This document shows positions 2,788-44,670 of a stretch of 64,000 nt of DNA, piece after piece. The position numbers were made by a program, and so were the translations under genes. The notes below the pieces were generated by a model. That model was not told where the DNA came from. It searched no databases and saw nothing but the letters and a program-made list of their open reading frames with translations. Position 1 is the first letter of the stretch. Each line of letters begins with the position of its first letter. This DNA is from Halichondria panicea (Eukaryota > Porifera > Demospongiae > Suberitida > Halichondriidae). Where the stretch lies: contig NC_087380.1 of assembly GCF_963675165.1 (NCBI RefSeq), forward strand, positions 5,402,071-5,466,070. Direction: 5' to 3'.

Positions 2788-5700
2788 ATGAGCAAGAGAA
2801 GGATAAGTGTGAAGCCTAAGTCTCAATCTATCTCCTACTTTGAAGTATCTCCTTCAAAACGTCGTGCTGTGCATAAAAAGTCTCTCTCCATGTCTCTTTG
2901 TCTGCTGTGCCAGAATCCTCTTCTGTTAATTCTTCCAGCAGTACTAGGTTCCTCTCCAGTGATAAAAATGAAGCTGAAGAAGTAGATGTACATGGAGCGA
3001 GCAGGCCTACTGATGTTATCAGTGGCGACTCTCCAGATGTATTAATCAGTAGTGAGTGGTATGATCATGATCCAGAGAGCTCGGGGCAGGATGACACCAC
3101 TTTTCCAGACACGGTGAGCTCAAGTGCTTATGAGAAGCGACAGCAGAAGGCTGCTGACAACTGGGCTGAAGTGCGTGTCCAGTTGCTACGTGCCAGTGTA
3201 GAAACCGGAATTCCTTCCCCTTGTTCTGTGTGTGCCGAGTGTGAAGAACCTGCTGTTGCAATTTGCCGGGATTGTGGACCACAGGCATACTACTGTGCCA
3301 ACCATGTGGACTCAGTACACTCTCTGACAAATATTTTTCATCGACCTTTTCTCTGGAAAGTATGCACTAATCAAACATACTGCTGTACATTTGTGATTAT
3401 TAAATGCATGCGATCTGATTTTACAGAATGGAATGCTTCACCCATACTATTTCAAGCAGTCGAGAATCTTTCCAGCACTTCATTGTTGCTGTACAACTTA
3501 CATAAAAGAAGTTGTTTGTCTTGATCCTAAAGGTATTTGTTTAACTACACTGATATAGCCTGTATCTAAGAATCCAATGACTTACAGGTTTCCAGCATTG
3601 TGTGTGCGTAACCTTCTGCAAGTGTGAGCCTGAGGCTGTTACTCTTGTGCGGCATAATATGTGGCCAGCGACACCAGCAACTCCCACCCTAGCATTTCAT
3701 CAGGATCTGCTACTATGGATGGAGTCACTTTTGCTGGAAGGGTGTATTGGTGTCGATGCTTTTTGTCGTTCTCTTGAACACAAAATTGGAAGAGATATCA
3801 GCAAACAAGTATGTGAATTTGATGTCGGTTATAATTATACATTAATTGTTGCGCACTGATGAGGTGTACATGTTGCATGCGTCAGCAATCGCTTGAGGTA
3901 CACACTTTTAATTGTCAGTTGTTTTAATCTGTTTATTCTTCTATAGCTCCGGAAGATCTATCCTGTCATGATTGATGCATTTGAAGAATATAGGTAGGGT
4001 ATATTAATTGTGAAAGAACATAATACGACATATTGACATTAACATTCATGCAGGTTCCACAGATATCAACTCGACTGTCTTCTATTTTTGTCTCCTGACT
4101 TGAACACTACAGCTATCTGCCCTGCCTGTCCTCAGGTTTGTGGTTTTGTTATAGCAATTAGACTCTGGCAGCCTATACTTACCTTTTACCTGCAGAGCAA
4201 TGGAACTCAAATTATATCCATGGATGGTGTATTTGGACTATGTCGGAAAAAGTCTGCTGGTGTTAGTGTTCGACCACCACTCTTCTCTGGTGTATTTTTT
4301 GAGGAACAGCAAGCAGTAGATGAGTTTGTTGCTGATTATGATACATTTGGCCAGATAATCGACAAGGTAAGGTTTTAGCGTTATACTTAATTGGTCAAGT
4401 GTGAAAACCTGCGCTATACAATTTGGATGTAATTAAATAGACTTTTAGCACATTTCACTCAGTTAATTTTATCCTGGCATTAGGGGTGTCATGAGTTCCT
4501 CGCTGGAGACACTTTGCGCTCCAAATCAAGGTACGCAGCTCTAGATGAAACTGCCGTGTTTGGAAGCATCTGTCGTCATGAGTTTCCCCAGAGATTTCTG
4601 AATATGAAGCATGGAGAAAGGTATGTACGTAAAATTAAGGTTTTCAAAAAGAGCATACATGGTGCATTGTTAAAAATTAAGGTATTCTGTATCTTAATTA
4701 TCTAGACTAGCATATCCTGTGTACCTGCTAAAGAAGGCACACCAAAACAAGGGTGACAAGTGTCTGTTGTTACTGTATGATATTGCCTGCTTACTCGAAA
4801 CTCATCTGAAGGTTTGTGTCTCAATAGTCAGATCTAATCTTAATTAGTACGCACTCATATTTGATTACTTCTCCAGAATCGTGGACATCTTGACATGTTA
4901 GAAAAGACAACATTAGGAGTGCCAATTTTTCATGTCTATGGGCATTGTGCATTCTGTCAGGTAAGAAGAAAGATGCCAAAGCTGTGTGTTAATAACTTAC
5001 TGTTGTATTATACATGTAGCTGACATATTCACCTAGAGTCCTAATTGGATGCGGAATTACTGATGGTGAAGCTATGGAGAGACTGTGGTCATATCTAAGA
5101 AGATTTGCTAAATCCACCAAAGAAATGCGACCATCTCATCGCATTGATGTCCTTACCTCAGCTCTATTACATTATGCATCAAGAGTACGTCTTAATCTAG
5201 GTTTGTTTTTTGTTAGGGCTACCTTAATATTAGCTCTCAGCACTAGTTGGTATGCACCTATGTATGCTTTGCATAAAGGAAAAAAAAGTGCTAACTCTTG
5301 TATACGTAGGGGCATCGTTAGTCAAAAGGCTGAAGAACGCCCAAAACACTCAACATAGTGCAACAGAGGACTTATCAAAGCTATAATCAATGAGTCAAAT
5401 GGTTAGACGTAGTCAAGAATAAAGTTTGTGAATTTTGTGCACTTTTATATTGCACCTTCAGGTACACTGACGGAGTCATCAGCTGAACAATTGCAGAAAC
5501 AACAACACGGGCTGTTCGCAAGGAGTCAAACTGATCTGAGTGAGCATTAATCATCAGATGATTGTATCAAAATTGTGATGACACTTTGACTGGTTTCGGG
5601 CAACGTCACAAAACCTTTCAGAACATCCTTCACATTGCTCGCGAGCGTAGGTTTTTAATATCTACCAAAGCGAGATACGCTGGTAAGAATGCTAGTCAGC

Positions 5701-6622
5701 ACAATCATGTAATTATATAAATAATAGTTATGATTTAGAAGCCCAAAGAGCTGGTTGTATAGTATCCCGAACGTAGTGAGGGTTCTACTAGCCCTGAGGG
5801 CTTCTAAATTATGTGGAAACTTCCTAAACAGCTAGTGTCTAAGCATTAATTTTAGATCATTTTTTATTATAGCAACCATGATTCTCTAGCCAATCAGATT
5901 TGGATCTACATGATTTTCTAAGTTGGATAGAACACTACCTTTAGCCAATCAGATTGTAGTATGTATGCATGCTAACATGATCTATGTACTTTGTTACAGA
6001 TGGTCAATCGATTGCTGCACGCCTTGCAAAGAAGATATCATCAAGTACGAGTACGCTGAAACGAACAGTGAGCAGATTTAATGGTATGCGGCATGATCAA
6101 TTTGAAGGAGTAGCATACCATCTGCCAGCCAATTTGAATTGGGATACAGTTTCCAATTTGGAAGAATTGTCTACGTTGGAGGTCGCGTCGGCTGGAAATT
6201 GTACCATTCCCATCCATTTGTGGATAAAAGTTGTGAGAGCGTGTAATATGAAGGAAAGGGCAACGGAAGAAGTGAAGATGATAATGGAAGAAATTAATAC
6301 TGTTGCCAACAACCTGAAATACGAGCATTCCGTAATAAGTCGTCATATACAGGATATCGCCACATCTGATAGTCTGTCTCTGTTTCAGAAAGGTTGCCTT
6401 AACCTTTTGCACCGAAGATTATTACTTTGCGAATCTTATTTAATTACGTTTTCCAGAACAGTTAACCAGTATCATACTGTAGAGCTACCTGATACGAGCT
6501 TATTAGGTCCAGATGGTTCATTTTTTTACAATTGTCAAATTCATGAACATGATTACCCTTCCGTTACTGATATTATTTGTACAGACAGTAGTAGTGATGA
6601 TGATTCTGACGTGGACAATTGA
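2788..6622 (+). CDS. KDZ-superfamily transposase with CxC2-type cysteine cluster
   Basis: Multi-exon gene. Exons read from GT/AG sites: 2788-3359, 3427-3532, 3588-3808, 3947-3993, 4054-4135, 4196-4366, 4494-4620, 4711-4811, 4877-4960, 5020-5200, 5310 onward, and a last exon 6000-6622. The N-terminal part has an acidic/Ser-rich region and a cysteine-histidine cluster (C-x2-C-x2-C...C-x2-C...C-x3-H) typical of CxC2 domains joined to KDZ transposases. The core shows MDGVFGLCRK, a CRHEFPQRFLNMKHGER block, YDIACLL and DGEAMERLWSYL, all KDZ signatures. The last exon gives a helical, acidic C-terminus. Oddities: the first exon changes frame between about 2872 and 2898, and joins between 5310 and 5700 could not be resolved without stops (coding-like pieces at 5461-5545 and 5590-5692). 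The copy may therefore be slightly damaged. Family call firm; exact model not. Confidence 0.75.
5734..5812. repeat. Small hairpin element in transposase intron
   Basis: Arms ATTTAGAAGCCC and GGGCTTCTAAAT flank an imperfect inner hairpin (TATCCCGAACG / GTGAGGGTTCTAC). It lies in the intron before the last transposase exon. Confidence 0.5.
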
Positions 6623-14621: not shown

Positions 14622-17600
14622 ATGGCTACCAAAAAAGACCACAAAATTTCAAAAGCAGACTCCAAAAAGCCAATAGCAGTTAGAGTCCACCCTATCAATG
14701 TAGGGCAAGGAGATGCAATATTACTGGAGGTTAAATATGATAAAGGTAATTAAGTGATTGCATGATTGTGTCTTATACATGTAAAATTTTGTGATTCTTA
14801 CATAAATTTACAGTTTATCGAGATTTACAATAAGCTATCGTAAAAGAAGTGTGTTATTAATGGAGGTGCATGCATGTGCATGAGCACTCCCGGTTACGGT
14901 AAATAGTTTGCTCATGAATATTCATGATTTTCTTATAATGATTTTTGTGAACTATAAATGCCATGAGAGAAGTTTGAAACACATACATGATAAATATATT
15001 GGTGTATCATCCTGTATGACAAGTATCAGTCTTCAAAACGTTTTCCAGTGGAAGCTCTGAGCGATCATCAAGTTACTAGAAACAACATAAACTAGTAGTC
15101 ATTTTAAACTTCCAAAAACACTTCTAGCTCTGTGTTCTTGCTCTTATATGATGCTTCTTACCATTCTGGAGAGCGGGTCGAAGCGTTTTTTTCTTTCCAG
15201 GCCAAGAAACTCTCACAAAATAATAATATGTAGACCAACTCCACTTAAAATGGCGGCCAGAGCCAAGGAAAACAGCCTCTTGTGAGCTTTCAGTAGCCTT
15301 TTTTCGAAATATCTCTTCGACCCGCGCCGCCCTGCATATAGTGAAGCTACAGTAGACTGTACCTAAGCTTTATAGTAAAAATGTCTATTCGAGCCATGAA
15401 ATGACTACTGCGTTTCAGCTGTACTTCCAGCTCATTCTAGCTGGAAAAGATCACTAGATCAAGCTCATGAATAATTAATGAGCAAACGGTTGACCCTAAC
15501 CTTAAGAGTTGGCTTTATGATTGCTGGATTCCAATTTTAGCTCTCGTGTTTTCATGCACATGCAGGGTCATCCAAAAAGTGGCTGATCGATGGTGGCCGA
15601 GGACAAAAATCAACATTTTCTAACCTGATAACAGCTCTGGACGAGAACGATTGCATATCAATATCGACAGATGGCACCTATCAACAGATAAAGCTTGAAT
15701 CGATTGTCAATACTCATCCAGATGCCGACCATTATGGAGGAATTAATGCACTTTTAGGTACTGGAAACGAAGAAATTAGAAAGTTGGGTGAAAAGTTCAC
15801 TGTCTGCTGTCCCATCATAACCACCAAGGCTGCAAGTTTGTATGTGACAGATGAAATACCTGGTAATGAAACCACGTATGAGTGGTATCACGATCACGAT
15901 GCAGGTGATTGCCCTCATTTCTGGTTTCCGAAGGAACGAGGACTAGTATTAGAAAATCTACATCAACAATCGACTGTAGAAATAAAAAAAAATGATGATA
16001 AGCGAGATTGTAACGAAACAAGTGTTTTGACAACTGTGCAGATACCGGGAAGCACATACGATTACGATGTGGTGTTGACTGGCGACTCAAATGGTGAGAT
16101 CATCCTTGACACACTCAAACTAAAGTCTGAAAAAGACAAGCTGCGTAAGACCGTTGGTGTTTTCCAAGTGCCTCATCACGGAAGCAAGAACAACAGTACA
16201 TGTACTACAAAAGGAGAAGGTTCTTACCTGAGTTGTCATACATTTTACATGGAATTTGATGCAGACATCTACTTAATCAGTCATGGCAATCACAGAGGCT
16301 ACGATCATCCGCATAGTGAAGTTATCACAGGCATTCTCTCTGCAGCTGTCAAGAAAGAACAGCATTGTAAAATAGTAGTCACAGCAACACGGTTTAATGG
16401 AACCAAAATCATTGAGGATGATACCGTAAGCAACTGGAGGTATTATGTTGATATCTACAATTTTCCACCGTATGTCACCCTGGATCCAAACGATGTGAAA
16501 CCGCCTGAGGGTTTAAAGCTGTATAACAAAAAGGTACACACTTAATTCATTTCAGAGTAAAGAAATTTAATATAAGTATACTATTATAATATAGTAGTCT
16601 AGTAGAAAACAGACTTTAAGGTAGAGTTATATCTATGCCTCGGTGCACATGCGCAAGCGAGGTATACAGTAGTGTGCCTGTGTGTGTCGACTGCTACAGA
16701 TGCTCAAGGTCAATGCAGTGCAAAGTATAGGTCATGTTTTTTATTCTTTATTCGTGTATTTGCAAAATAATGCTTCGTTCTCGAGTTACGTTTACTTTGG
16801 AATACCTTTTTAGAAGAGTGCATAGCAAAACTATTTCACGGAGTGTTGCTACTCCTTAGCTATTGGTAGCTGCAAGAGTGAGAAGAGAGCTGCAACGCTC
16901 TGCTGATGCAGACATACATTTTAGACTTGAACTTTTGGCATTGATCGTTTTTAACAACAATCATCGTCAATCATTACCCACTCCTGTGATTCTGGATTCT
17001 GCCTGCTAGTCTAATGAATTAGCCGCCCTTCCATGGGAGATTCTCTGCCTGCATGCAGCAATGCAAAATGTTCATCATGATAGTACTCGCTAATCCAAAT
17101 AGAGCGGGACCAGACCCCATCCGAATACATGACATTTCCGGATTAACAGATGCCATTAATTGATTATGAATATCATTAACGAAGACACTTTTGTACATGT
17201 ATTATGATATTACTGTGGCCAGAAGGGAAGCTGCTAGCTAGAATAGTCTTTATCTTAACTTTCTTCCCAATACATGTACAGTGAGTCTTGTGAGCTCTCT
17301 CTTCGTTTTCTTTACAGTGACCATTGTCTTGAGCAGTTTATTATTGCTGATGATTCAACTAAGCAATTTACATTGCGCATGCGCAGAACTCTATTCTACT
17401 GACAGCCCCTCCTCTTTTTCAGTTTTCCATTTTGTCCGGATTTGCGAGGTTTCAGATTAAAGGGGTCCAGATTAGCGAGGTTCTACTGTAGTAGCTTTGG
17501 CATCTCCACTGAGGCATCAGCATCCGCGGTGCTTTCATTTAACTATAAACTCGAGGTCAAACTCTAGACTTTAGGTGCCATAGAGCAGGTTTACCCGAGG

Positions 17601-20600
17601 CGCATGTGGGCGGCCACAGGTATAGCAGTCCGTTATTTGCTATATCTGAGTCTGCATCGATAGCCTCTACACAAGTTATTATGCCTCGGTGCGCATGTGC
17701 TCGCTTAAGCGAGGTATACGGTATAGCATCAGGAGTACATGAAGGGTACGTAACTACTATATACAGCCCATACAAACGTGTTGTTGTCTGACTCGTCATA
17801 CGAAGGGTGTATGAAGAGAAAAGGGCATGCAACTACAATTTATATTGCACGTGCATTTTATACTTTGACAGCCTTTATTCCCTAGTGGGCGGTTGGCTAA
17901 ATATAGCATATCCTGCTGACTCATCAATAATACGACGCATACACAGTATACATTGTGAGTTGCATGTACTATGTGTGTAAACGCCCACATCTCAAGTGGC
18001 TGTACAACCGCACTCAAAACCCAAAAAACAGTGTGGTTACTTACATGTATTATATGCAAGCACATGGTAGAATTTCTGATTGTAGCCTGCCTGCCATACA
18101 TGGTAATGTCATATTTACATGAAGTGATCTCAGAGGAGGTAGAAAAACAGGTCTCATTTGGTCGCTAATGAGGTATCGTACAAGTATCTTGATCGCCGTT
18201 TTTGCACATGATATTCACAGCCATGTGGCTCGATGTTAGAAGTGGTTACAAGCGAATTAGAAGTAAACAGTCTTCAACAGAGTTAGCTAGAGACTAGTCA
18301 GCTCTAAGCACTAACAGTGGGGCCAAACGCTAGTTGTTTGCTCAAAGTCAGTTTCAAAGTGTGCCTACTGGACGGTTTTTTTCTGAGGTTGTTGTTGCGT
18401 TTGGCCTGTTAGAGATATACAATCTCTCTTCTGAGACATAGATATTGTAGACTCAGCCAAAACTAATCTCTAGCTAGCTCTGTTGGAGACGGTTCACTTT
18501 TAATTCGCTTGTAATCACTTATAACATAGAGCCACATGGCTGTCGCACATGAGCAAACACTGATATCATTTGTGCAAAAATGCAATTAAGACCCCTGTAC
18601 GATACCCTCATTAACGACCTAATGAGGCCTAGCTGTCCTACCTCCTCTGCTGTCCTACCTCCTCTGAAGTGATCTCGTACCAAGAAAAATGAAGAATTAC
18701 GATTGTATAGTTGTTGATTCCTTGCCGCGCCGCATGCAGGAGCCATAAGACTCCAGGCTTCTTCGCTAACTTTGTTCAGATCCTAGTCCACAATGCATGT
18801 CTCATACACTATACTAAAAGTCCGTTCTCAGCATGCCTCTTGCTCCTGGTGGGTGTGGTTTCCTGGGGAATATTAGAACCCACAAACTTTTCTGCTGAAG
18901 GCTCTGGAGCCAAATAGCGAAAATTTGCACCCGCGAAAATTTCCCACTCTATACAGTAGTAGTATTACATTAAAGTCTTGCAACCATGGTACAAACAATA
19001 CACACACATGCATGCAAGGAGTTTGGAAGAAAAACTTAGGGAAATAATTGGTAAGACTATATAATTATACACATGAAGTTAATTTATACATGCAGGTGCC
19101 AGCACCGAGTTTAGAAGAAAAACTCGCAAAAAATAATTTGCAGAGGAGGGAGGTAATTGATCATGACGGCAACAGCTTCTTTAAAGCCGTCAGTAAAGCA
19201 CTAGAACACAAGCAAAACTCACCCACTGAGCTGAGAAAGAGGCTTGTTAAACACTTGAAGACAAATTCAAAATTATACTATTCAAGATTGGGAGCAACTT
19301 CAATGAAAGAGTATAAGACGCTCTGTTCACTGGATGGCCCTTTATCCTCTAATATTGAAAAAATTCTGCCTGAGGCAATGGCACAGACACTACGAATGCA
19401 AATAAAAGTTATCCCTGCGAATCCTAAACAAGAGGACAAGTTTTATGGAACTGAACCTGCTATTCAACTACTACACGACATTGATCACTATGACTACGTT
19501 CTGCCAATTACGTCTCCAGGAGATACCATAAACAAATCAGACGCATTGCCACTTCGTACTACAGAGACTCCTCTCAAGAGAAAAGAAAGTCCAGCCTCAG
19601 CAAACGGAACATTAAGCAGACGCAAACTGGTTCTACCTGCAGCTGGTACAAGGTGAGATAAATAACTTAGTTTTGTTCACATGATCTTCACCCAATTAGC
19701 AACATAACTTAATTCACACTAAGTGTGGATTAAGTACCTTTTCATGAAAAATAACAATACAAGAACAAAACCAATTGAGACATTCGATTCAACAGGTCAA
19801 GCTGTACACATGGCAGGCTATACTGGACAATAATCACAGCACGTGATTGATTGTTATGTAATCCCTAATTGCCAATTATTCTAGAGCTGCACTGCACGAT
19901 CTTCTCTTACAATCTCTTTGATGAAGTTATACAACTCTCAGTTATAAGCCACCGTATACCTTAGCAACCACATAGCAACGGGCTAGAAATAAATAAATAC
20001 CAAATACCGTGCTTCACCGTCGAACCGCCTATATTAAATAACTGCCCACCCCCTCCACTACAGCTGCTTTGTAACTATAGGTGAAGCATTTGAATTATAT
20101 ACTTAAGCTTGAAAGTAGTAGAAGCGCCAACTATTGCACATTCTTATAATTCGGTCAAAGGTCAACATTATGCAAGATTTTCGCGGATGGACCATTACAA
20201 AGGATTTCGCGGATATTATTTTCGTGGTCTGAGTTCCAGTCTTTTGGCGCATGCGCACATCAACATGCAGCTGTACTTCCACACCATTAGCCTCGAATCC
20301 AGGCCTAGCCTATAACGGTGAGGCACCTCTTATTGTCGATAGGTGTGGTCAATAATACTGAACACGCCTACTATTCAATAAAGATATAAATTTTCGCGGT
20401 AGAGGCTCAATCCGCGAAAACCGCAACCCTCGAAATATACCCGCTATACGGTACAGCCCATACAAACATGTGATGTGTTGTTGTCTGACTCGTCATACTA
20501 TGTTTGTAAAACGCCCACATCTCAAGTGACTGTACAACCACACTAAAAAAAACAATGTGCTGGTTAATTACATTTATTGTGCAAGCATAATTATGAGTAG

Positions 20601-23600
20601 AATTTCTGATTGTAGCCCGCCTCCCTTAGCCATACATGGTAATGTCATATTTACATGAAGTGATCTCAGAGGAGGGTTTCCAGAAAGGTTTGCACAAGCC
20701 CCCTTTATAGTGCAGTGTTTCTAGCTCTAGTTAGCCCGATGAAGGAATCAGTCTAAACTAGTTAGACTATATGTGCATTCGGTATCTATGGTTATAGTGT
20801 CCCTCGACCCTCGGGCTTTGGGACACTATAAAACATAGATCCCTCATGTGTAGGACAGGTCTCTAGGTTGCTTAATGAGGGTATCGTACAATGATCTTAA
20901 TTGCAGTTTTTGCACATGATATTCACGTGCGACAGCCATGTGTCTCGATGTTAGAAGTGGTTACAAGCGAATTAGAAGTGAACAGTCTCCAACAGAGTTA
21001 GCTAGAGACTAGTCAGCTCTAGCACTAACAGTGGGGCCAAACGCTAGTCGTTTACTCAAAGTCAGTTTCAACGCAAAAGACGTCCAGCGCGAACTGTTTC
21101 CAGAACAAGGGTGAGATAAATATCAGTTGTGCACATGGTATAGGCTATAGATCACATGAAAGCACTAAATACCTTACACACCTAGCCAAGATCACGTGTT
21201 TTTTAATGCTAGTGCACTCGGATGGGCTCTTGGTTACGTAATGTACTCGGCTTTGCCTCGTGCACCACGTTAACCTCTAGTCCATCCTTGGCACACAAAT
21301 AAAAAAACACATAATCATGGCTAGGTGTATTCTAAATAATTATATGTACCTCGAATTCCTCCTACTGACCAGACCAGGACAGCCAAAGAGAGTCTAGATA
21401 AGAGTGGTAAGAGTCGAGGCAAATCACAACCCTCTGTGCAACCTGCACCGGTACAAATACCAATCACAAGGTTTGTACAGTGCATGATACCCAGGTAGAA
21501 TTATGGTCAAAAATCGCATACATACAACATTAAGCATGGGCACGGGCGTATTAAAGTACCTTATAGGGGAGCTATTTCGTATGGTAGAATTTCATATATT
21601 TTTAGAGCATCATACAAAAACAAAAACTACGAAATTATTCAATAAGTTTAACGTCACTATCTTGATCGAGTTGTACGAATATTTAAAATGAATGGGTAGT
21701 TCATACGAAAATTTTACCACCGAAAATTACCCGCTGTACGTACTTATTGCGCAGTGGTTTTGTGCATTGGTTAAACCCAAACCCCCTGTGGTCACAGCTA
21801 TAATTGCAGTTTTATTTTACTCATTTGTAGCACTTCTCAGAGAGACAGGCTGTGCAGCTCTAGAATAATTAATAGCAATCACATAATACTGAGCCAGCGA
21901 ATATGTTACAGAAAACTCAGCGTTTTTTTTAACAAAATACTGTAGCTATCAAAACTAGAGCACTAAAGTGCAAACCCTTGGCTGGTGACATGATTATAAA
22001 GGAGTGATATAATGCAGTGCATGTAGTGATGTATGACTGATCTGTCTATAGCACAGCAACTCAGGAGCAATAAAACTAAACCAGACTGGAGGCATGCTGA
22101 AACATTTTTGAGAACAGAGTTTAGTAGTGGTATATATATGGGACATATGTGACAGGGTCTGGGAAAACCAGACTATTGGAGCAGACTAAAATTTTGGTGA
22201 TTAATGTACCAAGTGATAGAGCATCGCATCGCCTACACAATGATATGCTTAGTGTTCACATACCTAGTTTCATACCCGAGTCATGCGCGTTGGAAACTCA
22301 AAGCCGTAAAATGTAGTATCGAGAAAAACGGCTCTCAAAGATTGCTTAATTAGGAAAAATAAGGTAATAGCGAAAGTTTGGACGAAGCGTTTCGATGGAA
22401 AGAGTTGGATTTAGAGCATCAGATTTTACAGAGAGGTAGTAGAAGGACTGTAGATACTTATACATCAATAATATTTTATTTGAGATTTTATACTGTAGGC
22501 ATAAATTTAGCTGTAGCTCAATACTAAATTCTGCTCCAATAGTCTGGTTTTCCCAGAGCCTGTCACATATGTTCACTGTGGATCACACCAAAGAAGACTA
22601 GAGTCTTAGAGAAGTATGGCTCCTGGAGTCCTGCATGGTTCCGATGTCATAAAATGTTAGGCCCCCCATGAGATTGGGCCCCCCCGGGCCTAGAATTTTA
22701 ACATTTTAGGCCCCCCATTAACAGCGCAACAGTGGTAACATTATGACAGTGCATTCTCAAAATACACCAATACAGTCTTCTATGGTCTTCACAGTCTAAT
22801 ATGCAGACAGCAGTGCCAGTTACTGAATGCAGCTCTCCTCACATGCACACACACATTTCATGCATGTACGTATACATGAGCAGTAGTATACCACTGGTCT
22901 CACAGCCATCACACTGCACCATGTCATTCTATGAATCAGGCCTCATGCAGCACGAAGCACATAGGTGCCAACTGTCCCGAATTGGTCAGGACTGTCCAAG
23001 ATTACCCTTGTCCCGCAAGGAAACTGCTATTGTGATTCCACCATAGATACAACAGTTTCTCTCTTGACTTCTATTTATGATTCCACATTACTTGAGAGCT
23101 GAGCCAGTGATGCTATTGGAGCATCCCCACAACAATTTACATCTTCTATGTATAGGAAAACATGGAGGAAGATATGAATTGTTGTCTTTGCACTGAAATT
23201 GTGTGCTTTATACTTTTTTGTCCTGAAATTTGGCTGAGAAAGTAAGCACGAAGTTGCAAATATGGCGATAGCTATATGCAACAACATCGATTGTCTTACA
23301 GGCAGATCCAACATTGCAGAGCTGCATCAAAGAATTTAACTCTTATAGGTAAAGCATGAGTAACTTGAAAGGTAAAGCATGAGTAACTTTAAAGGTAAAT
23401 CTTCCTTCACTTTGAATTCCATGCTGATAGAATAATAATGCAAACATTTTTGCTACTTTGATACAGAGTCTTTGCATGCATGCAGTCTCTTTGATGCTTT
23501 GTCAACTAATAGAGCTAACCTTACCATATTATTATATCTCTTTGACTTCGTTCTATTGTGCAGAAAAGGATAGCAGAAGAGGGGGGCCTAATCTCACAGT

Positions 23601-25715
23601 GGGGGGCCTAGAATGTTAACAGTTTGGACCCCTGGGGGGCCTAAACTGTTAACATTCTAGGCCCGGGGGGGGCCCAAAATTTTATGACACCGGTGCTATA
23701 GTTGAGACAACAAACCAGTCACAATTCCAGCTGTCTACTTTAGTGACTCTTTTCCATTGTTCCTGGTATGGGATCACTTCAGCTGCAAATAAGTGCCTCG
23801 AATAAAGGCCACATGTGTATAGCTTGCTCAACGTGCAAGTTTTAAAAGCTTCTGAGCTTGACAAAAAGGCTTAAATATCAAAATCTGCCACTATTAAAAT
23901 GAAAGCACCGCGGTTACTGATGTCTCGGTGGATGTGTCAAAGGTAAAACTAGCTATTGCTAATAGACACATGATATCATGAACATTTTTGCAGGCAGAAT
24001 CACAGGAAAACTCAAAAAGTAGGAAAGGATCGATCATGATTGTTGCTAAAGGATCAAATTATGCCAAACGTCTAATTAATGGCTGTTGCATCAGTCAGCA
24101 GAGCCTTGCAGCTCGCTACCAATAGCTAGTGTTCTAGTGCAGAGCTATAACTACTAAAGTAGAGTAGCAACAATCCATGAACAAATTTTGTTACGCACTT
24201 TTCAAAAGGTTGCAATGGCATTCGAAGTATTAAAGTAAAACTAGGCATACTCGAGAACCAAAAATTATTTTGCAAATCCAATAAAACATGACTAGAAGCC
24301 TATAGCCGGAAAGTCTGATATTTGAGCAGCTGTAACACACACACACACACAAACACATTACCGTATACCCCGCTTGCGCATGCACACCGTGACATAATTA
24401 CTTGTTGTGGAAGGCTATCCATGCTGCAGACTCAGAAATTACAAACTAACAAACAAATCAAACGACTACTCCGCTCGTGGCCGCCCACGCGCCTCGGGTA
24501 ACTACCGACAGTAAGTGTGCCAGTTCTTAGGCACGTGGTCACTGCACTGAGCATGATTGTTGTGTAATCGCTAATTGCCAATTATTCCAGAGCTGCATTA
24601 CGCCTGTCATATATACTGTATTTTTCGAGGCACTTAATTTCGTGGAAGAGATAACAACACGTTTGTATGGGCTGCATAGTAGTTGCTTACTCCCTTTCAT
24701 GCACTCCTGGCGATAGACGGTATAAATAGCGTGAAATTTTGAGGGGCTTAATATCGTGGGTTAGCAATCTTATACAAAAAAATTAAATACGGAATGGCCT
24801 CTAAAAACATTTCATTGAATAATTTTCGTGGGTTAACTGCTTACTGGAAGCCATGCCTCTAATCTCAGCGAGTTATTAATTCTAATTACTAATTAAAGAA
24901 CAATTTTTTTACTACATGTGTAAAACGCCCACATCTCAAGTGGCCTACAAACGCAATCAAAACAGTGTGGTTAATTACATGCATTGCGCAAGTCCATGTG
25001 GCTAACTATATATAGCTAGCTCTTGCACAACAAAGCCTAAGAAAAGCAAAAATGTGGCTATAGCTCTTACCAGGAGTGCATTCCTGCTCATGAACAATGC
25101 CTAAGCAAAGTAAAAAAGAAACACAGCAAAGCAACTGTGTAGAAATCGCCAAAAAGCTTGCCACTGAAAATAATAATCTAGCATTTATAATTAACTGAAG
25201 AAGTAGAGAAGTACCACAACTATACCTGGGAGAAAACAGGTTTTTAATATCATCTCAATGATGGTTTGGTGAAGCTAGTAGACTGCGAGGTGTTTACTGT
25301 AGAAGTGAAACAATGTTCAACTTGTTCTGTACATCAGACTTCCTGGGAGATATCTAGTTGAGAGGTTAAGCATTCTCTAAGATGACATCAGTAGATCTAG
25401 ATCTATGCTCTTCTATAATATCTCAGGAGTGTGAATTTATATGGTGTGTATAGTAGTTGCTTACTCCTCTTCATGTACTCCTGATACCGTATATATACGG
25501 TATAAATTATAGCTAATAATTATTTTACAATTCACTCATACAGTAAAATATGCAACATCTGCAAGAAATCAGCAACTCCCAAGACCACATGGTATGATTG
25601 CAAGAACCCTAAATGTCCAGTCAATACACACACTACATGTGAAGAGAAATCGAGAAAAAAAAAGGAAGCAACTTCCCCCTATTGTAAATATTGCAGAACG
25701 AAGAAAACAAAATAA
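14622..25715 (+). CDS. MBL-fold (ComEC-like) / OTU-like / zinc-finger protein, gene 1
   Basis: Five phase-consistent exons: 14622-14745, 15566-16533, 19096-19652, 21378-21470, 25544-25715 (1914 nt, 637 residues). Residues 20-330 form a metallo-beta-lactamase fold of ComEC/Rec2 type: INVGQGDAILLE, LIDGG (48-52), THPDADHYGG (91-100, metal ligands H92, D94, D96, H97), TGDS (213-216), VPHHGS (243-248), then SHGNHRGYDHPH. Residues 365-500 resemble an OTU peptidase (HDGNSFFKAVS...HYDYV), but the catalytic Cys position is Ser391; His495 is kept. Residues 581-637 are a Cys-rich zinc-binding module (CNIC...CKNPKC...TTCEEK...CKYC). Likely a metal-dependent hydrolase with a ubiquitin-related or binding-only OTU module; substrate unknown. 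Exon 4 is the least certain; an alternative small exon is possible near 21067-21111. Confidence 0.75.
14893..15510. mobile_element. Imperfect TIR element in intron 1
   Basis: The left arm holds TTTGCTCATGAATATTCATG and the right arm its imperfect inverse (CATGAATAATTAATGAGCAAA). It is about 0.6 kb with no coding capacity. Confidence 0.45.
16636..17000. repeat. ATGCCTCGGTG repeat family, reversed fragment
   Basis: Begins ATGCCTCGGTGCACATGCGC and contains the diagnostic GTTCTCGAGTTACG block of a family also found at 23890-24400, 43860-44190, 44800-45110, 45500-45920 and 51530-52045. Confidence 0.55.
17080..17490. mobile_element. TIR element ending GAGGTTCTACTGTA
   Basis: Left TACTCGCTAATCC-like and right GATTAGCGAGGTTCTACTGTA ends are imperfect inverted repeats. 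A related fragment (CAGTGGAACCTG) occurs at 27684. Confidence 0.5.
18168..18645. mobile_element. Foldback (palindromic) element in intron 2
   Basis: The arms are long inverted repeats: GAGGTATCGTACAA...TTACAAGCGAATTAGAAGT on the left, and the complementary ATTCGCTTGTAA...TTGTACGATACCCTC on the right. A half-copy with the left arm lies at 20878-21070 and precedes the same intron sequence. Confidence 0.65.
19017..19050 (+). repeat. Partial duplicate of the OTU exon start
   Basis: AGTTTGGAAGAAAAACTTAG just upstream of the OTU exon nearly repeats the first codons of that exon (19107-19140). It was not used in the gene model. Confidence 0.45.
20508..21070. repeat. Second copy of intron block 17975-18375
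   Basis: Shares CGCCCACATCTCAAGTG, TCTGATTGTAGCC and the foldback arm with 17975-18375. A third, short piece lies at 24915-25000. Intronic duplications within gene 1. Confidence 0.6.
22142..22573. mobile_element. MITE with about 45-bp TIRs
   Basis: Left end ACATATGTGACAGGGTCTGG, right end complementary (CCAGAGCCTGTCACATATGT). The arms extend through AAAACCAGACTATTGGAGCA. About 430 bp, no coding sequence, in intron 4 of gene 1. Confidence 0.75.
22643..23693. mobile_element. About 1.05-kb TIR element with GC-rich arms
   Basis: The ends read TGTCATAAAAT and ATTTTATGACA. Next to them the arms carry runs of GGCCCCCC/GGGGGGCC and AATGTTAACA-like blocks. A tandem GGTAAAGCATGAGTAACTT repeat (23348-23395) lies inside. 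No transposase. The GC-rich arms stand out from the AT-rich surroundings. Confidence 0.65.
23890..24400. repeat. GAAAGCACCGC...ACCGTATACC repeat, copy
   Basis: Begins GAAAGCACCGCGG...GTCTCGGTGG and ends with a CA tract, ACCGTATACC and GCATGCACACCG. Same order of blocks as the clearer copy at 51530-52045. Confidence 0.55.
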
Positions 25716-26582
25716 TGGAGAATCTCCTTCGTGTCGAGTCTGTGGGGGAGCTGGCCACGTCCATTGTATCGAAGGAATAAGCAATCAAACAACTGATAGA
25801 GATAAGTAGTGCATTAATTAGGTAGAGCACACTTATAACAAAAAAATTATGTAGGGCTAGTGTAGTAATGTGCACAGTAATCAATCGGTATTTATATTTA
25901 GTACAAGACTATTCAGTGCATCAAAAGAGTAACAAGATCATTATAGTTATGCAGTATAATTTTGTATGATGAAAAATACAGCATTAGCTGGTGCAGGGCT
26001 CGCGCTAAAAATATTAGCATGACCGTCAAAATGTCAGTTGCGATCCAGTTAATGTTTTGATCCGACAAAATGTAATTTTGCTCTGACATGCAATCTATGA
26101 TTTCTATATTCAAAATCAGGCACACAGTCATTATGATGTTGTGCATGAGGCTGGCAGCATGATCTTCAAAGTCCAATTTGGGCCTGTTTTGACAAAATAT
26201 CTTGGGCTATATATAGCCCATAATCTTTTCCCGAAATGAGAAGACGCTCGAGTATTCCTTAATTCAGCCATCAATAAACTAGTTCAGGCCTGATAGCTTA
26301 GTCGTGAAATTTTGTAGAGAGAGACCCACCAGCCAAAGTGAGAGACCCTTCAGCCAGAGAGAGAGAACAAACTAATAGTTCGCTTGCTCTCAGCTAGCTA
26401 ACTACATTCAATGTACAATGAGGCAGTTTGTAATTCTTGATCATTTTCACTGATCCATTTATCCACACTTCTTGTTCTGAGCTACTAGAACTCGGCGTGC
26501 TAAATAGCTAACCCAAACTGGCTAGCTCTACATGTATGCTCCGATGAAATGTCTGACTAACACGTGCAATGATCTGTCACGC
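25716..26582. other. No recognisable gene
   Basis: Immediate 3' flank of gene 1, then AT-rich sequence. Just after the stop an overlapping frame continues with a Cys-rich CRVCGGAGHVHC segment (25736-25771). This could be the former C-terminal end of the zinc module lost to a frameshift. Confidence 0.45.
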
Positions 26583-27208: not shown

Positions 27209-29603
27209 CTTGACGGTCCCATCACTGGAGTGTCTGAAAACACCTCAATGTTGAACATGACCTCTCACTCAGTCAGCTTTCCGAACATTTTACGTACGCG
27301 TAGAGAGATTTCTCTCCCTTCTGCCGGGTCCGTAATCGAACAACGACTTTTGCATTTGTTGATTCGCACAATTACTCCGCATCCAGTCCTCAAGTATCGT
27401 CTAAATGGTGGTGTCAATGGATCAACTGGACCATGGCATTTTTCGCAAGAGATGAACGGAACAAGTTCCACTGTGGGTGTGTGAGAGGGGGTTGCATTAC
27501 AGATGAAAAACATAACAAAACACAGAGAGTTTGCAATTGCATTTCTTAGCGTCATTATGACTTTAGGAAAGGGGTCTTGGGCTGCGACGTTTAGTATTGA
27601 CCACAAGTCCAGGCATGCTCACGAAGGGGCGTGGCTTGCAACTACCCATTTGTTTGGGAAGTTCTCACAGAAATCAGATACAGTGGAACCTGAAAAAACA
27701 GACTCTCCCACTAGAGGACAACCTCTTTATAAAGGACACTAGCTATGGCACGGAATAACGATGACGCGTGGCCAACCTCCTCTATTTTAGAACTGTGACT
27801 GTTTAGATGGGTGTGGTTCATCTCCAGGCCACGCCCATATAGTAAATACTTGTGACGTTATAGGGGGGGGTCAAAATGGTAACGCCATAAAGCGAGCTTT
27901 AAGCATGCATATAATTGTTAGAATACTTAGCACCGGTTAAAGTCTTTGTAAGGTGCATTGCAATTAGAGAAAGTTAACGCATTCCCAACAGAAACTATAT
28001 AGCAGCAAGAGACCACACCCACCTCTGGGTCGGCCTAACTCCCCTCTGTGTAGCCCAGACTGCATGTTGAACAGTTTAATGTGGCCAGTGCTCATTCCAG
28101 CCACAGCAAAGGTACAACTGGTGATCGTCACACACTACAAAATAATAACAGTGGTAACTGGCAGTATTTAGAAAGAACAAAAGATATAGTCTCGTGTACT
28201 GATGTAGACATGCGTGTACACGCATTAATTAGGGGACTTTGTATCAATTAAGTTTAAGACACTCAGACACCCACTAGAAATTAAGCATAAGAATGAATGC
28301 AAAATCAATGCCAAATTCTACTGAAGATACACAACATTGATATATACATGTACATTATTAGAAAAACGAAAGATAAACTGAATACAGCTAAACACAATTA
28401 TAATGGAAGTTATGCTGCGTGACATAATTATAGATCGCAATTACTATTACAGAAACATGCAGGAATAAGACGCATACATGAAACAATCCCGAATTATATG
28501 CGGTGTACATGCTCAGGGTGTTATACAGAGAAAGGGGGGATATCCCCCTCAGGCTCCAATTCCCCCCCCCGCCTAACATATGAATCCAAGGAAGAGGTAC
28601 TATATAGCTGTATGACTGAGTGTCCATAGCTGGCATTGTTACATACTAACATGCAGGGTATTGAAATAACAGTTGACCCATTTTTAGCAACATTTTTTTG
28701 GTGACTTTTCAAAGCATGAATTATTTTCCCCTCTACTTCAAATCCTATAATTATGACACCCTGATGCTAGTAACAAAACGCTTGTGTCTAGTTACGTATC
28801 TCTCACCTTGGGTTTGGCTCCCAGGTCAGCATGCTTGGAGGAGAGGGTGTGCTGGCCAATGGTGTACTTGTTTAGGTTCCAGGTCTGAATGGAACCGTGA
28901 GTAGCATGACATACCACCACTCCATTTCACTCATCAGCACGAACTGATTCTGAAAAAAAAGGATTACCTTCAAACTATATAGGACTCAGCAGTTTGGCAA
29001 CACTTCTTTATATCAGTGATGCCCAGAGTTTTTGAAGTGGTGGCTATTAATTAAACTAGGCCCCAAGTATGGCGGTGGTTATACCGGCTAACAACCACCG
29101 ACCATGGCGCATCGATCCTGTTATTATGTAGCTGCCTAACTTACACAGAACAAAAGCAAAACTATATTGCATGATATATACCAAATACGCAGTGCTGGAC
29201 CATCTTCCCAAAGTCTGAATTGTAGAGTCATTAAGGCCACGTGAGTGGGCTGTAGTGGCGGCCCCTATACGAAAGGAATGCCCCGCATAGTCCTTCGGAT
29301 TGAGCCCAGCTGTGGCCAGTGCAGACCTGACTGCTTCGACAAAACGAGATTTGGTCAAGGGCCTTCCACAACTACTCAAGAAATTGTATATATCAAGGCA
29401 GGCTGATACGTACGTATGGCATTCAATACACGTATAACCCATTCCACACATACGGTCGGCCGGGGATGAAAACGTTTCCTAAAAACAGTAAAAAATCTTC
29501 AGTTTGTAGCACTACACACAGGTGCCACGCCCACCTTGTGACAGCTCCAAGTTCATTGCCACGTCCTTGTGCACCCCAAACACTCGGAGGGCATTGTCCA
29601 AAC
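27209..29603 (-). pseudogene. WDR36: WDR36/Utp21 N-half exon fragments
   Basis: Four minus-strand exons in WDR36 order: 29535-29603 (LDNALRVFGVHKD), 28807-28884 (TWNLNKYTIGQHTL), 28023-28134 (VTITSCTFAVAG, then LFNMQSGLHRGE) and about 27209-27275 (ending SSDGTVK, with an apparent frameshift before it). The second and third join in phase 0. These match the WD-repeat region of animal WDR36, with NMQSG-HRG the most telling motif. The exon that should follow (IWSFYDK) is not downstream; it appears at 38.6 and 52.3 kb. A tyrosine-recombinase fragment occupies the first intron. Part of a rearranged gene or an isolated fragment. Confidence 0.7.
29172..29392 (-). pseudogene. Tyrosine recombinase C-terminal fragment
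   Basis: About 70 residues of a tyrosine recombinase catalytic end: HSFRIGAATTA (His and Arg of the active site), IQTLGRWSS and the Tyr in AYLVYI. Family members of this kind (Crypton, DIRS or Ngaro-like elements) are several hundred residues long, so this is a truncated piece. It lies on the minus strand in the intron between WDR36 exons at 29.5 and 28.9 kb. Confidence 0.7.
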
Positions 29604-38855: not shown

Positions 38856-41800
38856 ATGGGAGATAGATCAGAAACAAGCAGAGACTCTAAGTCAGCTAGC
38901 AACTTGAAGACAAGCGATTCAAAGTCAGAGATTCCAAGAGCAACCAATACAAGTTCTGACAGAGAGGTTCATACTGAGAGACAGCTACTGAAAGGTAGAA
39001 AGAGCAAAGAGAGTAGCATAGCACAAGGAGAACGAGTGCTGGTCCATCCTACCAATGTAGGAGGAGGAGATGCAATACTACTGGAGATACAGAGTACAGA
39101 TGGTAAGCGATTAGTCTACTAGTGCTCCAAATTCATACTAGAATATTTTGCGGATGAAAAACCTTAAGTTTGCGAATGAGCCAAATCAGCAGAAAAATTG
39201 ACCCTTCGCGCTGATGATAAGAGAGTTGATAGATATACATAAAAACCAAAAGATTTATTCATGGTCATGAGGAGCTCAAAATGTAATAGAAAATCCCACA
39301 AGCACCCGAGTGCTTATAATCCCTTAAGAAATGCTTTGCTTTAGTGAAAAGTATTAAGAGAGTGGACGATAAACAGAAATGTGATGGCTACAGATGATCC
39401 TGAAGGATAGAAGGATAGAGATTGTATGATGATGATAGAAGTTTGTATTACCGCTAGAAATGTTATGTTAGAGGCACTTAACTTAACTTTTGTGGAAAAA
39501 TATTTTAGTTGACTAAATTTCGCGCAATACGGCACAAAATGCACGTTTAACCCGCCCTGTTAGCTAGTTTGTGCATAGATTGAAGAGTTAGAGGGATAGG
39601 AAACGGAGTGGTGCACGTGATGATTTTACATTGAATCTGCAGTGGAGCCTCGAAAATTATCCGCGTTACGAGGCTATTAAGCACATTTTTGCCGGGTAAC
39701 TCCCAAAGCTGTGTTTCCTCGAGACATCATCTCTTTCAGCAATTTATAACACGCCTAGTCCATGAGCCACGTGTAGTACTTGCTAATGACTGACCACACC
39801 CAGTAAAAAGAGACTTTCCAATAAAGTTATAATTATGTTCCCAAGGCTGTTTTAGAGCTATTGGAACATACCGTATAGCGTGTAATTTTCGTGGGGCAAA
39901 ATATTTGTGGTTTTCGTGGTTGGAGGTCTGACCACGAATATTTTACCCACGAATGAAGCGACCTTGCCTACCTTTACCTGCAGTGCAAGCTCCAACCACG
40001 AAAATATTACCCACGAAATGTCTCAATATTGCTGAACCACGAATATTTTGTCCCCCGAAAATTACCCGCTATACGGTATAACGTGTAAGCGTGCTGGTTA
40101 TGACTAAATGTTGTTTCTGTATGGGTACTACAATAGGTATAGACCTTGAAATATAAGTGAGTTGCACGGACTAAGCACAGTTACTTGTAGTTTATTATGC
40201 ACTGAGTGTAGAAATAGATATTGTTGTGATGGCCTCGATTAAACCGCAGCGTAGCGCGGATGTTACTCGAGATACCAACCGTTTTCCTATCCCTCTAACT
40301 CTTCAATCTATGGTTTGTGGAACAATTTTCGTGGAGAATTGGGAACCGTCTAAAACAGCAAAACTTATAAGCACATTGAAATTTCGTGCTACATTTAATG
40401 GTATGACATTGTGGTTTCCTGTTGATGCAAAAAAGGGGAGGATCTGCAGAGAGGTTTATTTTCACAATGGCTGTTTGCTTAATTCTGGCCATGTACAGCC
40501 AGAGGAGGTTGTACAGGGTCAAAGGTAAGGTCACTAATTGATCATCACGAGAGACAATCAGTTGTACAGTAAATTTGTAAGAGTTACTGCATGCTTGTTG
40601 CACTTTTATTCTATAGCCCCTTCAGGTAATTAGTGCTGCTGTCTCTAAAAGTGGTGACCTCACAAAGGTCACTGTTCTGGAGTGTGTGTGTGTGGTGTGT
40701 GTGTTTGAGAATGGTATATACAGAAGTATAGGGGGTGGGATCAGGCTTTCCACACATAATTACTGACTCAGCCTAAAAATTAGAAACAGCTCAAAGTTAT
40801 AAATGCACTGTCATGTCCAACTGACCTTTGACCTTTAAAAAGTAGCAACTACGTACCCTAAAGCAATGTATAGCTCAACTATGTCATCATCTAAGCATAA
40901 AAAGGTGGTTAGCTAGAAAACATCTTGGTCAAAATAGGTTCAAGGATAAATAAGACGTACGCCATTATTTTGGCTTTGTGTCTAATCTCCTCTGCTGTAC
41001 ATGCAGCTTTGCAGCTTTTTTCTCGTTCCCATTCAGAAACTTTTTGCGAACAATGCTATCAACAATTTTGAGAAAACTGCAACAGCCTTTACTGTAGCCA
41101 TAACTCGAGTTAGTTTATAAATCCATGCATCGAAATCCAAGAGAATGTGGCTGCTGTAAGTTTCGTCGCATTGCAACCGTTGAACAGTACACACACACAC
41201 ACACCGTAAGCTTTATTGTATTTCTTGTGCAGCTACGCCTCAAGGCTTAAATTTACAAATTATTTACTGTTCCAGGCCAAAGTGAGAAACACCTTATCGA
41301 TGGGGGCAAGGGACAAAAAACAGGAGAGAATACATACTGCTACGAGAATCTCAAAGACACTCTCAGGGCTCATGGATGCTTAGTACAGAAGAACTTTATT
41401 GAAACTGGTACTACGTTAGAAGATCGAACTTGTGAACAAGTTACACTGGAGTCCATTATCATCACACACCCCGACAAAGACCATTGCGATGGCATTAACC
41501 GATTGCTAGAAGACTTCACTATCATGTGCCCTATCACAACAACTCTGGCAAGCTGTTTAAAAGTCGGGCATTCTGGTGGCCCAAAAAAAAACATGCAACT
41601 AGGTGAAGTGTTCTCGTCGAGTGAAGGATGTCGAGTTAGGCACTGGTTCCCGTTAACCGGTGGTAGACGACATACAAACATCAAAACACTGTCAATGGGT
41701 TCGACGATAGAAATAGACAAGAACAAAAAAAAACGATTTAAGCTCAACAAAAAAAGCTCAAAAAAAATAAGCTCAAAGAAAAAGCGCAAGGCAAAACGGC

Positions 41801-44291
41801 TCAACTTCAATGCAACAAGTATTCTGACAACTGTGAGTTTACAACCGAGTACATGTGAGTATGATTATGATGTGGTGTTGACCGGAGACTCGTATGGTAC
41901 TATTATCGAGAAGAAACTGGCTTTGAAAGGTAAATCCGTGGGAGTATTTCAAGTGCCTCATCATGGAAGTAGCTACAATCTCGATGACGAAAAAACCACC
42001 AGATCAACAGCTGAGGAGTTCACAGGTTTTTACTCGAGTTTTAATGCATACATCTACTTAATCAGTCACGGCGATCACGGAAGCTACAATCATCCGCATA
42101 GTGAAGTTATCACAGGCATTCTCTCTGCTGCTGTCCAGAAGAAACGAGATCCTAAGTGCAAGATAGTAGTCACGGCAACATGGTTTGAAAAATCTAAAAT
42201 TGACGAAACAAACATTAGCAACTGGAGGGACTATGTTGATATCTACTACTTCAAACCAGACACTCCCGGCGTCGCTCCCTATGTCACTCCCTACGTCACC
42301 CTAGATCCTAACGATGAGAAACTGCCTGAGGGCTTACAACTGTTTGTCAAAAAGGTGCGTGTACACACAATTAAAGTTAATAGAAATGGTAAGATTACAC
42401 CGTTGGAAATTATTTATACAGGTGCCAGCTCCAAAGAGTCTAGAAAACAAACTTGGAGAAAAGAATTTGCAGAGGAGGGAGATTGGTCGTGACGGAAACA
42501 GCTTCTTCAATGCCGTCAGTGGAGCACTAACAAACAAGTACACACCCATCCAGCTGAGAAAGAAGCTTGTTGAACACTTGAATACATTTCCAGATCGATA
42601 CTATCCAAGATCAGGAGCAACTACAAAGGATAAATATAATGAGATCGTAAGTAAGTATCTATTGGATGGCCACTTCTCGTCTGATATTGAAAAAATTTTG
42701 CCCGAGGCAATGGGACGGACACTAAATATTCGAATACAAGTTATCGCAGCGAATCCTAAACAAGAAGACAAGTTTTACGGTGTCGAATCCACCCAGACTA
42801 TTCTCAAACTTATATACAATGAGACAGACAATGGTCATTATGACTACGCCCAGCAAGCCACGGCACAAGGGGCCACTACTGAGCAGACTCCCGAGGAGAA
42901 AAAAGAACGTCCACGCTTAGCAAACAAAGGAGCTGGAAGACGCCTCAAGTTCGGGCCAAATGACAGGTGAAACAAATAATAACGAGTGTTGCCAGCTGCG
43001 CTGTGCTAATGCCTCTCGCCATGTTTTGTAGAGCGTATATAGAAGAAGAAATTAGTTTGCTTTGTATAATGTTACGTTATCGATGCAAATATTGTTGACA
43101 CTGACTGAACCATACAGTCATTATAGAAGAGGCGCTTAATGGAAACAGAAGCCTATAATTATCTGATGGCTTGATGAACGGATCTTCAAGAATAGAAGCC
43201 AGAGGATATAGAAGCATGTAGATCTATACAGTACATAGCCTCGATCCCAAGCCGCACTTCCTCGAAGAGTGGGCCTGGTATCGACTGCTTGCGCATGCGC
43301 TTTAACCATTAGCCAGATACCGGCTAACGCAGGATAACAACGTGTATGCTCAGTAAAACAATGACGTCACAACAAACAGAAGTGGATTGAAGGAAGTAGA
43401 TAGAAAGTTTGATTGAAAGCCCATCTGATAGCATTCTGATAGCTACCCGTAGCCTGGTAACAAAAGACTCACAGCCTGCAACACCGGTATGGATGACAAT
43501 CATCTCAACGGAGTGAAAGCTGACACTAGCCTACATGGACAGGCCACGCCCATCTAATACTAACTTTGGTGAAAGTCTACTATGCTACTGCTATTATGTA
43601 TAGCTGTACAACAAACCTACAGCTCTGTCTCTAGCTAGCTAGCTAATATTCTTTGTCAGGATATAAATTCAGGTATTATAGGAAATTTTACGGGAAAAAG
43701 TATCCAATAATTTTGCGCATGCGCAAGCAGTCAGTAGCAGGCCTTCTCTTCAGGGGAGGCCAGTGAAAGAAGCTATATACAGTACTGCATTTTCTGTCAA
43801 AAAAGGGGTGGATCTCCAATGAGGTCAGATCGAGTTCACAAGGGCTGTTGGAAGTGTACGTGCGTGCAGCTTTGCAGCTCTTTTCTGATTCTTGTAGCTA
43901 ACAAATAGCTAGCGCTTTAGTGCTCATAAGTTGAATAGAAAGTTTGCGCTAACATATGATGCTATGAAGAGACTGTTAACAGCCTTCACTGCGAGTCAAA
44001 CTAGCCATAACTCGAGAAAGAAGCTTTAACTTTGCAAATCCACGAATCAAAATCCAAGAGAACATGAAGCCTATAGAAGCCGTTAGTTTTTATCGCATTG
44101 TAACTGTTGAGCAGTTATAGCTGGAACAGACACACACACACACACACACACAGTCAGCTTTACCGTATCCCTAGTGCAGCTACGCCTCGAGGCATAATTA
44201 TTAATGTGAAATAAGCAGTTTCATTATACGATTTACAATTTACCCTTATAGCTATCGTATCTGTAATGAACCGGAAAATCCTAAAAGAGAG
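38856..44291 (+). CDS. MBL-fold / OTU-like protein, gene 2
   Basis: Exons 38856-39102, 41276-42354, 42422-42966 and probably 44252-44291, all phase-compatible. The N-terminal 70 residues are Ser/Lys-rich and charged. Then the ComEC-like MBL fold: HPTNVGGGDAILLE, LIDGG (89-93), THPDKDH (146-152), TGDSYG, VPHHGS and SHGDHGSYNHPH. A Lys-rich insert between strands (KRFKLNKKSSKKI region) looks like a nuclear signal and is absent from gene 1. The OTU-like domain starts at residue 443 with GRDGNSFFNAVS (Ser469 where OTU peptidases have Cys) and ends NGHYDYA. Exon 44252-44291 is a remnant of the zinc module (YRICNEPENPK). From there the frame runs on in phase to the TPR exons at 44671-47903, so both may be one gene. 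Divergent from WDR36 copy C. Confidence 0.75.
39870..40081. mobile_element. About 210-bp MITE, TTCGTGG family, full copy
   Basis: Starts ATACCGTATAGCGTGTAATT and ends AATTACCCGCTATACGGTAT. Several CCACGAA/TTCGTGG inner inverted blocks. In intron 1 of gene 2. Confidence 0.8.
40229..40524 (+). CDS. Unidentified open exon in intron 1 of MBL-OTU gene 2
   Basis: ATG at 40229 opens 98 codons (MASIKPQRSADVTRD start) and ends at a good donor (AG before GTAAGG). The composition is protein-like. A decayed piece related to its GATGCAAAAAAGGGGAGGAT stretch recurs at 43795-43830, so it may belong to a repeat. No domain recognised. Alternatives: first exon of a nested gene, an alternative exon, or chance. 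Confidence 0.35.
43860..44190. repeat. ATGCCTCGG/GAAAGCACC repeat family, copy
   Basis: TTTGCAGCTC, CTCGAGAAAGAAGC, a CA tract, then GCTACGCCTCGAGGCATAAT. It lies in the intron after the OTU exon of gene 2. Confidence 0.5.
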
Positions 44292-44670
44292 GTGAAAATA
44301 GGAAGAGAGAGAGGAAGAAGGGGAGAGAGGGAGAGAGAGAGAGAGGGGGAGGTACTATAACCAACATTATCTAGACACGGTCTTTTGCTACGTGTACCCT
44401 TTTTAACCAAGGAATATGAAATTTTAATACATTCACTAATAATTATTTATCAAAACGGGAAAATGGTTAAATGTCAACTGATTGAATGTTTAACTGAAAG
44501 GCTCAGTGTATTTTCAAGGGTTAAATATAGCCACTGTTGTGGTTAAAAGTTGAAGGATTTTTGCACATTCACAATGTTGTGAGTGCTATTGTACAAGACT
44601 AGTACATCCTCACAATTTAGTGTATACATTGACTGTCCAATACGTACGTCACATCCTTCTCATTTTGTAG

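Follow-up and report, generated by a model that had tools for sequence, protein, structure and literature searches.

A multigene family of the sponge Halichondria panicea joins a ComEC-like MBL domain to an OTU-like domain with serine at the cysteine site

The 64,000-nucleotide stretch of DNA analysed here, referred to as the window (C4:5402071-5466070), lies in the 131-Mb genome of the breadcrumb sponge Halichondria panicea and carries members of a multigene family that encode a metallo-beta-lactamase (MBL) domain joined to an OTU-like domain. This join is a real domain architecture. It brings known domain kinds into a new combination, which is undescribed as far as the open-licence literature searched shows: no described family with an MBL-OTU-Cys-rich architecture was found in the Pfam or NCBIfam scans, and such a family is named nowhere in that literature, judged by titles and the beginnings of abstracts. 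The enzyme class of the MBL is well supported; its activity and the biological role of the family are proposed from sequences and predicted models. We consider it about an even chance (roughly 0.5) that the products pair a nuclease-type enzyme dependent on metal with a pseudo-OTU that has a regulatory role, and that the family evolves rapidly and is perhaps related to defence.

The first member in the window, gene 1, comprises the following parts.

14622-14745, plus strand: exon 1, with the start and the first MBL-fold strand (VHPINVGQGDAILLE); in frame, with a GT donor; identical to NCBI LOC135334495 X2
15566-16533, plus strand: exon 2, the MBL domain, with the motifs THPDADH, GDS, HHGS and HPH
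19096-19652, plus strand: exon 3, OTU-like by Pfam, profile and fold search, with the catalytic Cys replaced by Ser (DGNSFF) and the His kept (HYDY)
21373-21397, plus strand: part of the terminal exon of NCBI isoform X2, reading RPGQPKRV and then a stop
21378-21470, plus strand: predicted alternative exon 4 of a 637-residue model, open, with canonical sites
25544-25715, plus strand: exon 5 of the 637-residue model, with the first Cys-rich unit only, which shares 49% identity with the corresponding unit in complete paralogues
25729-25797, plus strand: remnant of a second Cys-rich unit, behind a stop and in another frame (tblastn, 61% identity to the second unit of a paralogue)

Exons 1 to 3 are joined in frame at GT/AG sites and give 549 residues, which are the first 549 residues of P0001, named by NCBI "uncharacterized protein LOC135334495 isoform X2 [Halichondria panicea]" (557 residues). 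The joining of exon 1, the MBL exon and the OTU exon, as proposed in the first-pass annotation, is therefore also carried by NCBI. The "clean" product of 637 residues proposed there was obtained with exon 4 at 21378-21470, exon 5 at 25544-25715 and canonical sites, but isoform X2 ends without a finger: its exon 4 acceptor lies at 21373, five bases before 21378, and entry there leads to a stop after 8 residues. The label X2 itself implies another LOC135334495 isoform. The Cys-rich end, which had been called intact, turned out to be truncated, with only its first unit in frame.

The MBL matched the ComEC domain by fold and by sequence profile, and its first three sequence matches were all ComEC (6.3e-12 to 2.3e-6). 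The metal ligands HxDxDH, GD, HH and HP are kept in genes 1 and 2, as had been claimed; among 23 aligned rows, D94 is replaced by Asn in P0003 and P0020. The HxDxDH motif is presumably of the ComEC kind. No Pfam match to the membrane channel part of ComEC (Competence domain) was found in the exons or in P0002, and compared with the MBL nuclease domain of ComEC/Rec2, the sponge domain has longer loops and is fused to OTU and Cys-rich modules. We read the domain as a soluble MBL hydrolase of the ComEC type, and most likely as a nuclease or phosphodiesterase that depends on metal. The earlier statement that the enzyme part should be active is a prediction from the kept ligands and fold. It is possible, though we think it doubtful, that the MBL is instead a hydrolase of small molecules or lipids (of the phosphodiesterase, choline-ester or quorum-signal type) directed against, or working with, the microbes of the sponge; the ComEC matches and the metal motif speak against this.

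The MBL is lengthened between its motifs. Of 19 sponge-like rows, 18 have a loop of more than 91 residues from H97 to D215 (88 in P0031), compared with 88-91 in all four bacterial rows; the loop from H247 to F268 has 17-43 residues in 17 of the 19 (8 in P0010 and P0032), compared with 8 in all four bacterial rows. The active site may be gated by these loops. In one family copy (L038:455-1678; C4:5578955-5580178), a long Lys/Ala-rich repeat run (KAKKRKAKK) occupies the MBL loop before the NATS motif, and a shorter run rich in Lys stands at this position in gene 2.

The OTU-like domain of gene 1 matched Pfam PF02338 with an E-value of 0.0024 (18.8-19 bits, below the gathering cut-off of 23.3), and 8 of 16 OTU rows matched this family at E <= 1, the best at 0.00026; in a profile comparison the domain matched OTUD1 at 0.0015. 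A Foldseek search with the whole model gave weak and mixed matches, and a second look and a domain model were used in its place; OTUD3 and OTUD1 were the best structural matches of the OTU domain, several being tied. Like the MBL fold, the OTU fold is thus supported by sequence profile and predicted model. A Pfam OTU search of the sponge's own genome gave 27 matches, none of them in the cluster of MBL-OTU genes described below, indicating that the domain is strongly divergent. The presence of Ser at the catalytic Cys site, reported in the first-pass annotation, extends to all 19 rows holding the site. The catalytic His is kept in 18 of the 19 rows that include its own site (H131 in gene 1) and is Tyr in P0067; in P0066 the His lies within a broken end. 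Having lost the cysteine, the fused OTU-fold domain is most likely a non-cleaving binding or regulatory module, whose partner would be ubiquitin or a ubiquitin-like protein.

The full set of modules was found in two paralogues, at C4:5364k and 5481k, which have an open exon with two Cys-rich units (about 115 residues; C4:5366225-5366572 and 5482715-5483062). Exon 1 and the MBL-OTU frames are also open in both, with splice sites judged by eye in the 5364k copy, so that each carries an MBL-OTU-double-finger set. The two are nearly identical (nonsynonymous and synonymous distances, dN = dS = 0.00). With PF00628 (PHD), one OTU-less sister gene scored 33 bits (cut-off 24) and the gene 1 unit 14.7 bits, and a complete MBL-OTU paralogue gave C1-like matches below cut-off. 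Targeting is the role that we propose for this PHD/C1-like end, which is kept in some copies.

Further members and parts of the family in the window are as follows.

38856-39102, plus strand: gene 2 exon 1, by homology, with join and donor checked
41276-42354, plus strand: MBL exon of gene 2, containing an insertion rich in Lys; by homology, with join and sites checked
42422-42966, plus strand: OTU-like exon of gene 2, aligned with Ser in place of the Cys, with join and sites checked
44241-44297, plus strand: degenerate finger start of gene 2 (YRICNEPENPKREVK), from reading of the frames
47457-47902, plus strand: double Cys unit, PHD-like, similar in kind to those of the OTU-less sister genes (PHD E-value 0.0012, below cut-off; stretches 67-71% identical in minus-strand paralogues)
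52526-54560, plus strand: pseudogene copy with MBL, OTU and finger remnants by homology and in-frame stops

The gene 2 exons have the same phases as those of gene 1 and remain open over 623 residues through the OTU exon, in line with the claim that its MBL and OTU parts are intact. In gene 2 the Cys-rich module said to be common to the family is degenerate, keeping its Cys pattern for only a short distance from the start. The copy at 52526-54560 is indeed a pseudogene, the MBL match alone containing one TGA, one TAG and one TAA.

Searches of the sponge's own genome placed these genes in a larger cluster; the counts are lower bounds for large families. With the gene 1 MBL, at least 22 matches were obtained: 20 in C4:5335465-5590399, one on C13 and one distant at C4:3902173. 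The 20 matches represent 13 places, to which an OTU-only place at 5470k is added, giving 14 places spread over about 255 kb. With the OTU domain, 12 matches were obtained at 9 places, all in the cluster. The three genes of the first-pass annotation are real and form a small part of this tandem array. A transposon origin was rejected, because the matches are not scattered: 20 of 22 for the MBL and all 12 for the OTU sit together in a single cluster. On the minus strand, the copies at 5336k, 5389k, 5508k and 5573k carry the MBL and PHD-like units with no OTU match (about 4 kb examined at 5573k), so that there are two kinds of genes, MBL-OTU-finger and MBL-finger; those at 5389k and 5508k contain stops. 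The copy at 5579k has the MBL and fingers and almost no OTU. The family would turn over through tandem duplication followed by decay, a behaviour familiar from immune or host-microbe genes.

Such turnover raises the question of a decaying lineage-specific family, whose duplicates are under weak constraint and serve no steady function. Stops occur in 6 of the 22 MBL matches, the fingers of genes 1 and 2 are truncated or degenerate, and the dN/dS ratio of gene 1 to its nearest copy is 0.86 for the MBL and 1.39 for the OTU, at a dS of just 0.08. However, in pairwise NG86 comparisons of ten MBL copies, dN/dS was 0.18-0.86 where finite and 0.18-0.50 for pairs with dS > 1. Moreover, distant copies and other assemblies retain both the metal ligands and the Ser of the OTU, and the two near-identical copies have all parts open. 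The dN/dS pattern fits fast evolution and relaxed constraint equally; taking all this together, we regard plain decay as unlikely.

The role of the serine can be compared with Drosophila Otu and CG3251, Ser-OTU proteins of the OTUD4 family that also have Ser for Cys at the nucleophile. According to PMC4654579, both were inactive on ubiquitin chains, and restoring the Cys did not help. Because these proteins with the same exchange cleaved no ubiquitin chains, the sponge OTU is, by analogy, most likely non-cleaving. The likeness has limits, since the sponge domain is fused to an MBL and its best structural matches are to OTUD3 and OTUD1, among several tied. An active serine hydrolase or protease, with a ubiquitin-like protein or the loops of the MBL itself as possible substrates, would explain why Ser and His are retained with more order than plain decay would leave, several of the rows being near copies. 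The two Drosophila proteins, the Tyr of P0067 and the Pfam score below cut-off point the other way, and we regard this reading as unlikely.

Gated MBL pro-nucleases of bacteria (HamM, AVAST, Lamassu and Canu) offer another comparison. PMC12799240 describes bacterial MBL nucleases whose active site lies under two insertions: they stay closed until acted on by a protease, trypsin-like or of the caspase type, and then cut DNA. The sponge proteins are alike in having an MBL of the wider class, extra loops between the motifs and an MBL joined to a protease-type fold. They differ in that the bacterial protease is a trypsin or caspase on a separate chain, and the sponge has an OTU with Ser in one chain. 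The sponge family might be pictured as a defence module of animals that unites nuclease and protease in a single chain, in which the Ser-OTU, as a ubiquitin-like sensor or unusual serine protease, would un-gate the ComEC-type MBL via its extra loops. It would be a parallel or distant relative of the bacterial pairs of nuclease and protease known from Hachiman, AVAST, Lamassu and Canu, and would have undergone expansion and diversification in sponges; we hold this to be improbable. MBL nucleases and proteases have been paired repeatedly in bacterial defence systems, and the sponge family, with its many copies and rapid turnover, combines an MBL from that wider class with a domain of protease fold in one protein. 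It would allow one to ask if a comparable effector arose in animals, and what the conserved Ser-OTU does.

Avs1a, 6A-MBL, LmuA and RTasMBL were among the best families for the sponge MBL (NCBIfam and PADLOC). With the NCBIfam equivalog for Avs1a, the score was 44.6 bits against 420, and none of 7 genome matches passed the cut-off. In a control run with the PADLOC profiles (the NCBIfam matches had no such control), all ten other MBLs beat P0001 on LmuA (64.6-288.2 compared with 64.0 bits). Four of these (P0128, P0130, P0136 and P0141) may be defence MBLs; the other six, including a ComEC protein with the channel domain (P0048), scored 64.6-103.5. The LmuA match therefore shows only membership of the wider ComEC-like class, and profile matches to defence families were rejected as evidence of descent.

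Beyond this genome, an MBL profile search (8000 candidates scored) was evaluated for the best 120 of 135 proteins, among which a drop in E-value from 7.4e-28 (P0111) to 3.3e-18 (P0112) parts a sponge-like group from ordinary MBLs. An OTU profile search gave 17 proteins, 8 of which have a longest contig equal in size to that of an MBL relative (1021218, 519116, 462549, 685557, 23857, 10343, 7117 and 6768 bases), strong but indirect evidence that MBL and OTU relatives share one contig. Proteins of the 1021218- and 519116-base contigs matched H. panicea stretches at 99-100%, and those of the other six at 45-80%, so that these six appear to come from other species; the sources of the relatives are probably sponges. 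Some relatives have other C-terminal ends, namely CXC (TCR) units or repeated PHD-like units. Three of this type (P0037, P0075 and P0043) share the MBL clade, the FQVPHHGS stretch (FQVPHHGD in P0043) and Cys-rich C-terminal modules, but those scanned had no OTU match and have a different middle region (WTPEGY). A larger related group, which includes P0037, P0071, P0072, P0075 and P0095, combines an MBL and the WTPEGY region with linkers rich in Pro and with CXC (TCR) units; Pfam matched one such unit in P0075, and others were recognized by eye.

In an unrooted tree, three groups each form one side of a branch: the 36 sponge-like MBL rows (support 97/96), three rows resembling LmuA/Avs1a, and a further six bacterial rows; being unrooted, the tree does not tell which two of the three groups are nearest, and the clade test decided nothing. 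A recent bacterial acquisition of the MBL is very improbable, even though putative transferred genes in the sponge Amphimedon have MBL as one of their common Pfam domains (PMC4784904), because at least 70 bacterial loci are just 22-40% identical in their best segments, the E-value drop separates the sponge-like group, and that group keeps to its side of the branch. With all these loci distant, a bacterial donor was rejected; an old bacterial transfer may have occurred.

Several other elements were observed in the window. Between gene 2 and the PHD-like double unit lie one or more TPR-like exons (45957-46500, plus strand; TPR_2 at 46256-46558, 5.3e-07, the part near 45957 judged by eye). Adjoining the MBL-OTU pseudogene is a 275-residue open frame (54883-55710, minus strand), in which four stretches resemble DSL (3.1e-26) and another match is to laminin-EGF. 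Additionally, BEL/Pao-type retrotransposon parts were found at 59764-64000 on the minus strand (Pao peptidase A17, 5.6e-54; a weak reverse transcriptase; an integrase zinc-binding domain; a weak zinc knuckle). A tyrosine-recombinase-like fragment lies at 29056-29478 on the minus strand (Phage_integrase, 1.5e-05, below its cut-off), and a KDZ (Kyakuja-Dileera-Zisupton) transposase remnant (4.8e-11, 5020-5355) follows a weak B-box-like zinc region at 2877-6622 on the plus strand.
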